Shown piece by piece: positions 58,788 to 61,837 of a stretch of 64,000 bases of DNA (the stretch's first letter is position 1; each line of letters starts with the position of its first letter). A model generated the notes under the pieces. The model saw only the letters and a list, made by a program, of their open reading frames with translations, was not told the DNA's origin and did not search any database. This DNA comes from Streptomyces humicola. GTDB taxonomy: Bacteria > Actinomycetota > Actinomycetes > Streptomycetales > Streptomycetaceae. The DNA lies in assembly GCF_024436035.1 (NCBI RefSeq), contig NZ_JANFNG010000021.1, positions 1 through 64,000 of the forward strand, written 5' to 3'. A program made the position numbers and the translations under genes.

Positions 58788-60142
58788 GCAGCGTCCCCCG
58801 CCTCGTCATCGCCGCCCCGGCCTCCGGGAGCGGCAAGACGACCGTCGCCACCGGTTTGATGGCCGCGTTCGCCGAGCGCGGTCTCGCCGTCTCCCCGCAC
58901 AAGGTGGGCCCCGACTACATCGATCCGGGCTATCACGCGCTGGCGACGGGGCGTGCGGGCCGCAATCTCGACTCGTACCTGTGCGGTGAGGAGCGGATCG
59001 CGCCGCTGTTCCTGCACGGGGCGCGGGGGTGCGATCTCGCCGTGGTCGAAGGTGTGATGGGGCTGTTCGACGGGGCGGCGGGGCAGGGCGAGGCCGGGTC
59101 CACGGCGCAGGTGGCGAAGGTGCTGGGCGCACCGGTGGTGCTGGTCGTGGACGCCTCGTCGCAGTCGCGCTCGGTGGCGGCGCTGGTGCACGGGTTCGCG
59201 TCGTGGGATCCGCGGGTGCGGATCGGCGGGGTGATCGTGAACAAGGTCGGCTCGGACCGCCATGAGGAGCTGCTGCGGGCCGCGTTGGACGAGTCCGGGG
59301 TTCCCGTGCTCGGTGTGCTGCGGCGCGAGGCGGATGTGCGGACGCCGAGCAGGCATCTGGGGCTTGTCCCGGTGGCGGAGCGGGGTGCGGAGGCCGTCGA
59401 GGCGGTTGCCGCCATGGCGGCGCGGGTGCGCGCGGGGTGCGATCTGGATGCCCTGCTGGCGCTGGCGCGCAGCGCTCCTCCGCTTGCGCACGCTCCGTGG
59501 GATCCGGCGACGGAGGTCGGCGGTGGTGCGGTGCCGGGACGGCGTCCGGTGGTGGCCGTGGCGGGCGGGCCGGCGTTCACCTTCTCGTATGCCGAACACG
59601 CCGAGTTGCTCGCGGCGGCCGGCGCCGAGGTCGTCCGGTTCGATCCGCTGCGGGACGAGGAACTGCCGCAGGACACAGCGGGTTTGGTGATCGGTGGTGG
59701 GTTCCCCGAGGTGTACGCGCCGGAGCTGTCGGCGAACGAGCGGCTGCGGAAAGCGGTCGCCGGCCTTGCCGCGTCGGGCGCGCCTGTCGCTGCCGAGTGC
59801 GCCGGACTGCTCTATCTGGCAGGGGAGTTGGACGGTGCGCCGATGTGCGGGGTGCTGGACGCCCGGGCCCGGATGGCGGAGCGGCTGACGCTGGGCTACC
59901 GGGAGGCGGTCGCCGTCTCGGAGAGCGTGCTGGCGCCGGCGGGGACGCGGCTGCGCGGGCACGAGTTCCATCGCACGGTGACCGATCCGGGGGCAGGCGC
60001 AGCGCCCGCCTGGGGCTGGTCGCAGCCGGAGCGCCGTGTCGAGGGTTTCGTCCACGAGGGTGTGCACGCCTCGTATCTGCATGTGCACTGGGCGGCCGAG
60101 CCGTCGCTCGCCCGCAGGTTCGTCGAGAGGTGTGCCGCATGA
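58784..60142 (+). CDS. cobB: cobyrinate (hydrogenobyrinate) a,c-diamide synthase
   Basis: Glutamine amidotransferase that amidates the a and c side chains. The 452-residue protein has P-loop APASGSGKTTVATGLM, HKVGPDYIDPGYH, VEGVMGLFDG and a C-terminal glutaminase domain with Cys in AAECAGLLYLAGEL, then GYREAVAV and HEFHRT. Because CobN is present, the natural substrate is probably hydrogenobyrinic acid (no cobalt yet). GTG start overlaps cobO by four bases. Confidence 0.95.
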   Translation: MSSVPRLVIAAPASGSGKTTVATGLMAAFAERGLAVSPHKVGPDYIDPGYHALATGRAGRNLDSYLCGEERIAPLFLHGARGCDLAVVEGVMGLFDGAAGQGEAGSTAQVAKVLGAPVVLVVDASSQSRSVAALVHGFASWDPRVRIGGVIVNKVGSDRHEELLRAALDESGVPVLGVLRREADVRTPSRHLGLVPVAERGAEAVEAVAAMAARVRAGCDLDALLALARSAPPLAHAPWDPATEVGGGAVPGRRPVVAVAGGPAFTFSYAEHAELLAAAGAEVVRFDPLRDEELPQDTAGLVIGGGFPEVYAPELSANERLRKAVAGLAASGAPVAAECAGLLYLAGELDGAPMCGVLDARARMAERLTLGYREAVAVSESVLAPAGTRLRGHEFHRTVTDPGAGAAPAWGWSQPERRVEGFVHEGVHASYLHVHWAAEPSLARRFVERCAA

Positions 60143-60879
60143 GCACAGGGACCAAGCGGCTGATCGGCGTCGGAGTCGGCCCCGGCGATCCGGAGCTGGT
60201 GACGGTCAAGGGCGTACGGGCGCTGCAGGCCGCCGACGTCGTTGTCGTACCCGTCATGGACACTCTGGAGCGGGGGCGCGCAGAGGCAACGATCCTGCAC
60301 TACGTGGACGCCGCGAAGGTGGTCCGGGTGGTGTTCGCGCTCAACGAGCGCAGCGACCGGGCGCGTCGTGCGGCGGCGTGGGACGCGGCGGGCGAGCGCG
60401 TGGCGGAACTGCTGCGTGCGCACTCCACGGTGGCGTTCGCGACCATCGGCGACCCGAACGTGTACTCCACGTTTACCTATCTCGCGCAGACCGTCTCCGG
60501 TCTGGTCGAGGGTGTGGTGGTGGAGACGGTGCCGGGGATCACGGCGATGCAGGATCTCGCGGCGCGCAGCGGGGCGGTGCTCACCGAGGGCACCGAGCCG
60601 CTGACGCTGGTTCCGGTGACGGCTGGGGCTGCGGTGCTCAAGGAGGCGCTGCAGGGGCCGGGCACGGTGGTGGCGTACAAGTTCGGGCGGCTCGCGGAGG
60701 AGGTCGCCGCCGCGCTGCGCGAGACGGGTCGGACCGAGGGCGCCGTGTGGGGTTCGTCGCTGGGGTTGCCGGAGGAGTCGATCCGGCCGGCCGCCGAACT
60801 GTCGGAGGTTCCGTTGCCGTATTTGTCGACGTTGATCGCACCCGCTCGGCGGGACGGCGGACGTGGAGGGAAGCTGTGA
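60139..60879 (+). CDS. cobI: precorrin-2 C20-methyltransferase
   Basis: SAM-dependent methylation of precorrin-2 at C20. The 246-residue tetrapyrrole methylase starts with LIGVGVGPGDPELVTVKGVR, has FATIGDPNVYSTFTYLAQ for SAM binding and VPGITAMQDLAARSG. Length and motifs match CobI/CbiL. It overlaps cobB by four bases. The stop codon overlaps the GTG of a 50-codon insert ORF rather than cobM directly. Confidence 0.93.
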   Translation: MSTGTKRLIGVGVGPGDPELVTVKGVRALQAADVVVVPVMDTLERGRAEATILHYVDAAKVVRVVFALNERSDRARRAAAWDAAGERVAELLRAHSTVAFATIGDPNVYSTFTYLAQTVSGLVEGVVVETVPGITAMQDLAARSGAVLTEGTEPLTLVPVTAGAAVLKEALQGPGTVVAYKFGRLAEEVAAALRETGRTEGAVWGSSLGLPEESIRPAAELSEVPLPYLSTLIAPARRDGGRGGKL

Positions 60880-61028
60880 GCGACGCACACGCGGGCGCCC
60901 GGCCGCAGACAGCAACAGGGGGCACCCCCGGACGGAATCCGGTGGAGGCCGCACCTCTGCGCCGCGCGAGCGGAGAAGGGGGCACCTCCCAGGCGCAGGC
61001 TCTGGGAGAGAACGGAAGGAAGCTGTGA
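60876..61028 (+). CDS. 50-codon insert ORF between cobI and cobM
   Basis: GTG at 60876 overlaps the cobI stop by four bases, and its TGA overlaps the cobM GTG by four bases. The peptide is low-complexity (SDAHAGARPQTATGGTPGRN, later EGGTSQAQALGENGRKL) and looks like translated repeat DNA. It starts and ends at a near-identical 15-base segment (60865-60879 and 61014-61028, 14 of 15 matching) that holds ribosome-binding site, GTG and TGA. I see it as a passive bridge keeping translation coupled, not a functional protein. Confidence 0.6.
   Translation: MSDAHAGARPQTATGGTPGRNPVEAAPLRRASGEGGTSQAQALGENGRKL
60918..61010 (+). repeat. two GGGGGCACC palindromic elements in tandem
   Basis: Element 1 (60918-60947) is GGGGGCACC followed by a CCGGA/TCCGG hairpin and GTGGAGG. 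Element 2 (60978-61010) is GGGGGCACC followed by CTCCCAG, GCGCAGGCT and CTGGGAG. Head and hairpin-plus-GGAG tail are shared, and copy A at 40636-40671 has the same head and core in reverse orientation. Confidence 0.65.
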
Positions 61029-61837
61029 ACGGCAAAGTGAGCGGCAAGGTGACGTTCGTCGGGGCGGGGCCCGGCGCGGCCGATCTGCTGACGTTCAGGG
61101 CGGCGCGGGCGATCGCGGACGCGGACGTGGTGATCTGGGCGGCGAGCCTGGTCCAGGCCGAGGTTCTGGAACACGCCCGTGAGGGCGCGCAGATCCTCGA
61201 CTCGGCGGCGATGTCGCTGGAGGACGTGCTCGTGGTGTATGAACGGGCGGCGCGCGAGGGGCTGAAGGTGGCGCGGATCCACTCCGGCGACCCGGCCCTG
61301 TGGGGCGGTACGCAGGAGCAGCTCGACCGGTGCTGTGAACTGGGCCTGGAGACGGAGGTCGTGCCGGGCGTGTCGGCGTTCTCGGCGGTGGCCGCCGTGG
61401 CGCAGCGGGAGTTGACGATCCCGGAGGTCGCGCAGTCGGTGATCCTGACTCGGCTGGGCGGAGGGAAGACGCCGATGCCGCCGGGTGAGGAGGTCCGGGA
61501 GTTCGCGCGGCACGGGACGACGATGGCGGTCTTCCTGTCGGCGGCGCGCTCCGGGCAGTTGGCCGCGGAGCTGCTGGAGGGCGGCTATCCGCAGACGACT
61601 CCGGTGGTGATCGCGTACCAGGCGACATGGCCGGAGGAGCTGGTGCTGCGCTGCACGGTCGGGACGCTGGAGGAGACCGTCAAGGAGCACAAGCTGTGGA
61701 AGCACACACTGTTCCTGGTCGGTCCGGCGCTCTCGGCCACAGGGACGCGTTCGCACCTGTACCACCCGGGTCACTTCCACGGTTACCGCCGTGCCGATCC
61801 CGCGGCGCGGCGGGCGTTGCGCGCCTCTCGCGCATAG
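61025..61837 (+). CDS. cobM: precorrin-4 C11-methyltransferase
   Basis: SAM-dependent methylation at C11. The 270-residue tetrapyrrole methylase has VTFVGAGPGAADLLTFRAAR at the N-terminus, IHSGDPALWGGTQEQL, VPGVSAFSAVAAVAQREL and GGGKTPMPPGEEVREFA, the CobM/CbiF hallmark. The GTG at 61025 follows GGAAGGAAGCT. It is separated from cobI by the inserted segment described above. Confidence 0.93.
   Translation: MNGKVSGKVTFVGAGPGAADLLTFRAARAIADADVVIWAASLVQAEVLEHAREGAQILDSAAMSLEDVLVVYERAAREGLKVARIHSGDPALWGGTQEQLDRCCELGLETEVVPGVSAFSAVAAVAQRELTIPEVAQSVILTRLGGGKTPMPPGEEVREFARHGTTMAVFLSAARSGQLAAELLEGGYPQTTPVVIAYQATWPEELVLRCTVGTLEETVKEHKLWKHTLFLVGPALSATGTRSHLYHPGHFHGYRRADPAARRALRASRA

Follow-up and report, generated by a model that had tools for sequence, protein, structure and literature searches.

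The sequence inserted between cobI and cobM in a 64,000-nucleotide stretch of Streptomyces humicola (contig NZ_JANFNG010000021.1, positions 1 to 64,000; hereafter, "the window") is very probably a MIRU-like element, that is, a small dispersed repeat that would serve as a translational coupler within the cobI-cobM operon. MIRUs lie within operons in the orientation of the flanking genes, lack dyad symmetry, and form tandem copies whose number varies between strains; in 1997, Supply reportedly placed them at DTGA sites. These short repeats of mycobacteria are described as mobile and as inserting at start codons, with an ORF coupled to the gene at a spacing of -4 nt, and are thought to move with little harm to expression (PMC12548453); a second source, citing Supply et al. 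1997, gives their length as 40-100 bp and counts 41 loci in M. tuberculosis H37Rv (PMC2734929). We use the name "MIRU-like" because the anatomy agrees while kinship at the level of sequence is not established. The open-access literature that we searched contains no description of the Streptomyces element.

The insert between cobI and cobM

The two genes were named by the NCBIfam equivalog models TIGR01467 and TIGR01465. The features of the junction, all on the forward strand, are as follows:

60139..60879, +, cobI, precorrin-2 C(20)-methyltransferase (TIGR01467, 239.7 bits, cut-off 163)
60865..60879, +, left copy of the Shine-Dalgarno (SD) sequence plus GTGA (GGAGGGAAGCTGTGA), the native end of cobI, present as a single copy in the empty sites of relatives
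60876..61028, +, element micro-ORF (VSDAHAGARPQTATGG...LGENGRKL-stop), 153 nt, with a GTGA overlap at each end
60876..60916, +, conserved 5' arm of the dispersed element (GTGAGCGACGC...CCGCAGACAGCAAC), with blastn and covariance-model matches to other copies
60917..60946, +, palindromic repeat 1 (AGGGGGCACCCCCGGACGGAATCCGGTGGA), nested in the element; L032 and L034 have related copies at this element position
60947..60976, +, conserved 3' arm of the element (GGCCGCACCTCTGCGCCGCGCGAGCGGAGA), with matches to other copies
60977..61009, +, palindromic repeat 2 (AGGGGGCACCTCCCAGGCGCAGGCTCTGGGAGA), nested in the element; L033, L114 and L118 have related blocks at this position
61010..61028, +, element tail: SD sequence (GAACGGAAGGAAGCT) plus the GTGA that overlaps the cobM start; right copy of the 15-nt repeat
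61025..61837, +, cobM, precorrin-4 C(11)-methyltransferase (TIGR01465, 312 bits, cut-off 260)

The cobI stop TGA (60877-60879) overlaps the GTG of the micro-ORF at 60876, and the frame opening there runs stop-free for 50 codons to the TGA at 61026-61028, which in turn overlaps the cobM start GTG (61025-61027), leaving a 4-nt GTGA overlap on each side. The segment at the end of cobI (GGAGGGAAGCTGTGA at 60865) recurs 149 bases on, at the start of cobM (GGAAGGAAGCTGTGA at 61014), forming a direct repeat (60865-60882/61014-61031) that is identical at 16/18 positions. A sequence-only reading of the window had described this recurrence, the bridging frame and an insertion at the cobI-cobM GTGA overlap that left such an overlap on both sides, and our analysis bears out all three. 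It had also predicted that related strains would show the direct overlap with no insert, which is what we found: cobI and cobM of relatives meet at a direct GTGA overlap with one copy of the segment (e.g., GGAGGAAAGCTGTGA in L002 and L006 and GGAGGCAAGCTGTGA in L007 and L010), and the remaining relatives have short native extensions or a rearranged gene order. Relatives do not share the 149 bases, which, given their direct overlap with a single copy of the segment, are an insertion in the window lineage.

The insert matches many places in its own genome, piecewise, and by sequence similarity belongs, as a degraded copy, to a ~90-bp element that is dispersed and often tandem. It ranks among the weaker matches of the family (24.4 bits, E 2e-4, with R1, the sequence-only model of the element that was used for copy searches), and it is 149 bp long because two palindromes are nested in it. 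At the same cobI-cobM GTGA, the genome G099 carries three tandem units of 89 bp, each with a 30-codon frame and with a GTGA overlap from unit to unit. Both palindromes are absent from these units, and the window copy is nearer to copies elsewhere in its own genome than to them; the junction was likely hit independently in the window lineage and in G099.

A dispersed family in Streptomycetaceae

The consensus of the element is GTGAGCGACGC...GGGCGGAGAAGCGAAC-SD-DTGA, ~90 bp in length, and aligned copies read GTGAGCGACGCRCGCGNGGCCNCCGGGCCGCAGA... GCACCTCTGCGCCGCGCGGGCGGAGAAGCGAAC, after which comes a short tail that contains an SD sequence and DTGA. With R1, ~30 copies were found in the window's own genome at E<=1e-3, often in tandem; across loci, as distinct from strains of one species, tandem arrays have 2-5 units. 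Relatives with matches at E<=1e-4 numbered 39 of 199, 38 belonging to the same family and one being a weak match outside it, and a class-wide sample of 395 genomes yielded 17 same-family genomes plus one weak match outside. The host range of the element appears to be almost only Streptomycetaceae. Plasmids of three named Streptomyces each carry a copy; the linear plasmid of Streptomyces sp. NBC_00161 has its copy, which is unannotated, between argC and argJ (L218, NZ_CP108157.1 115970-116027). A search of phage records with the element gave no match.

Presence at a given junction is patchy. The pgk-tpiA junction is filled in the window's own genome and empty in its genus-mate G001 and most others, and the argC-argJ junction is empty in both of these genomes and filled in several other species. 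Because the sites without the element are exact empty sites, this patchiness reflects gain of the element, or its exact loss.

Several variants were seen alongside the main form. A second subfamily (GAGCAGGCGGAGTGGCCGGCCGAGG...CCGTCCGCGGAGC) is common in the window's genus (L076, L177, L176, L084; relatives L055, L171, L172, L174); several of its copies may no longer pass ribosomes, since they meet a stop after 6-8 codons (GAGTAG). Two copies, L081 in the own genome and L173 in G001, lack GTGAG, are bounded by CCTGA...TCAGG, and lie away from any start/stop overlap. There is also a recurrent target: in at least 6 species the element precedes the same small downstream gene (GTGAACAAGGGATCG...; L094, L108, L114, L118, L119, L127), with tails that differ among copies and a palindrome in L114 and L118.

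Position at start/stop overlaps

We read 112 arrays from fetched loci of the own genome and of relatives. An NTGA start is present in 101/112 (96 GTGA, 4 ATGA, 1 TTGA, 0 CTGA), a count to be read with the training of R1 on GTGA-ended copies in mind, which favors such hits at the 5' end and leaves the phase of flanking genes unaffected. That phase was compared with 492 control GTGA sites in the flanks of the arrays. In 76/101 arrays, the TGA falls in the GC3 frame of the upstream gene, versus 67/492 controls (13.6%; Fisher 3e-34), arrays at one junction in related species being non-independent within these and the following counts. Downstream, 70/101 arrays (71 with a slightly looser rule) have a micro-ORF chain whose end coincides exactly with the start codon of a GC3-coherent ORF, versus 22/492 controls (1e-46), the other two frames giving 22 and 17. 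The element is thus oriented like its flanking genes, within operons, as judged by the upstream (76/101) and downstream (70/101) phase. The mean Shine-Dalgarno match is 4.41 nt in the native left flank and 4.75 nt in the right tail, against 2.2 at random.

The ~30/101 arrays without a clean start-to-start chain show in-frame fusion to the next gene, early stops, or decay. Where the micro-ORF is in frame with the next gene, element repeats become an N-terminal extension (L092 in G034, L137 in G013, L047, L039 in the own genome, L124, and L178), and in L092 three units are fused.

Reading frame, peptide and RNA fold

Unit length is typically 90, 93 or 96 bp, other values being rarer, and from start to start it is a multiple of 3 in 61/80 loci (15 and 4 in the other classes), although these do not amount to 80 independent events because related copies share ancestry. 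A conserved small protein, in which a functional ~30-aa peptide (VSDARxAxGPQ..APLRRAGGEAN) is kept as a gene, would account for the recognisable peptide motif that the copies have in common. We consider it very unlikely: pairwise dN/dS is 0.92 in the micro-ORF's GTG frame and so falls between those of its other two frames (1.08 and 0.79), with no purifying selection on the peptide seen; the peptide has no match in Pfam or NCBIfam; and in some copies the 3' arm is read in other frames, although the end still coincides with the next start codon.

An RNA regulatory element inside operons (an attenuator, riboswitch or processing site) would fit the intercistronic position and the palindromes present in some copies, the window's included. 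Its probability is just as slight, as no Rfam covariance model matches at E<=1, 75 units do not exceed their dinucleotide shuffles in folding (z of +0.11 on average, and of -1.1 for the window insert), and strict reading-frame phasing would be unexpected for such an element. With that mean z, dyad symmetry is absent from the element; the window copy departs from this because palindromes are nested in it.

With lengths divisible by 3 at most loci, a dN/dS of 0.92 and no predicted RNA structure, it seems to be the frame that is kept and not the peptide. Most likely, the frame persists as a carrier of ribosomes across the insert, with the peptide free to drift.

Palindromes and the flanking repeat

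The sequence-only reading explained the junction differently: palindromic repeats, which would be REP-like, were inserted, the SD/start region was duplicated, and a bridging ORF arose de novo. Two GGGGGCACC palindromes are indeed present, if imperfect, with perfect arms of 5 bp in the first (60928-60932/60938-60942, read from the sequence) and 7 bp in the second (60986-60992/61002-61008), and no other left/right pair among 65 arrays is as good as the 15-nt repeat. However, the start and end segments of the ORF are conserved parts of the micro-ORF family at ~100 other gene junctions, mostly without palindromes, and the palindromes occupy element-internal positions common to other copies. An ORF born here through spreading palindromes is therefore very improbable; the insert belongs to a ready-made micro-ORF family whose members bring a start, a frame, an SD tail and a stop of their own.

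The exact palindrome pattern has only 3 hits in the own genome. Block 1 (60917-60946) has relatives in L032 and L034 and block 2 (60977-61009) in L033, L118 and L114, at the same internal positions. Because both occur inside other copies of the element, the palindromes appear to have been nested later, either as insertions or as markers of a subfamily, with the frame preserved (153 nt). Other nested modules (CCGTGGCGGAGCCACTGATG...GCCAGTAGCCGC and CAGTGACATCAGCCGC...) were observed in L032, L034, L041, L051, L052, L086 and L179, within the element's 3' half, where they replace the usual GGAGAAGCGAAC end and mostly keep the overlap with the downstream start.

Whether the 15-nt copies reflect a true target-site duplication of ~12-16 nt upon insertion or the element's own SD tail, which resembles its target, is more closely balanced. 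The window's flank pair is the most alike of the 65 arrays (score 10, equaled by 0/128 mismatched pairings), and own left/right pairs exceed shuffles overall across these arrays. When shuffling is confined to within genomes, the observed value is reached in 138/5000 shuffles with the window included and in 487/5000 without it (p ~0.10), and a general 12-16 nt target duplication is rejected, being lost in this control once the window is left out. Furthermore, most right tails at argC-argJ are not copies of the native SD, and three tails from other junctions (L118, L114 and L115) agree with the window's right copy at 16/18 positions, against 14/18 for the cobI copy. We regard a true duplication as having a little under an even chance; copying of the 15-nt SD region from cobI, as the sequence-only reading had it, may hold for the window and is not general.

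Proposed mechanism and comparison with known systems

The proposed element would insert at DTGA sites, i.e., at start codons, often where these overlap the stop of the preceding gene, through a copying process that would account for its mobility. It would bring a frame of ~30 codons that opens with GTGA and, behind it, a 3' tail containing a Shine-Dalgarno sequence and a DTGA at the end. In the window, a ribosome finishing cobI would re-initiate on the micro-ORF, stop at the second GTGA, and re-initiate on cobM, and for this reason the element could occupy a coupled operon with cobM not cut off. The two palindromic repeats would have entered this copy later, in frame (153 nt, a multiple of 3).

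Like MIRUs, the element consists of short dispersed and tandem units, stands at start codons with an ORF that overlaps the next gene by 4 nt and begins with A, G or T, and lies in operons in the orientation of the flanking genes, with no dyad symmetry of its own. Unlike MIRUs, its host family is Streptomycetaceae, and some copies contain nested palindromes. By every anatomical feature tested, it appears to work as a MIRU does, the likeness being to descriptions of MIRU and not to MIRU sequence. In 298 Mycobacterium genomes (no M. tuberculosis complex genome among them), the matches of R1 were single, scattered and at background level, and approximate M. tuberculosis MIRU primer patterns hit unrelated genomes plus one mycobacterial locus, with 1 mismatch, that lacks any repeat.

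The two GGGGGCACC... blocks, as small palindromes that entered the window element, resemble REP/MITE-like palindromic repeats, whereas the element itself is directional and bound to start/stop overlaps, and shows neither dyad symmetry nor an RNA fold. Rickettsia palindromic elements are small repeats, translatable inside genes, that are inserted in frame within proteins. The Streptomyces element is likewise a small repeat that stays translatable, but its unit is a separate micro-ORF between genes and only sometimes fused to the next protein.

On balance, we lean toward the view that Streptomycetaceae possess mobile translational couplers of their own, unrelated in sequence to MIRU and convergent with it, with a putative insertion machinery that recognises DTGA, and kept for their frame and SD tail, not for their peptide. 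The family provides a natural library of ~100 insertions with empty orthologous sites, in which selection seemingly acts only on the frame and the start/stop overlap. With it, the old idea that MIRUs persist because they leave translational coupling intact becomes directly testable in Streptomyces, which are harmless and tractable, and what look like small genes or N-terminal extensions at operon junctions are explained as repeat-derived.
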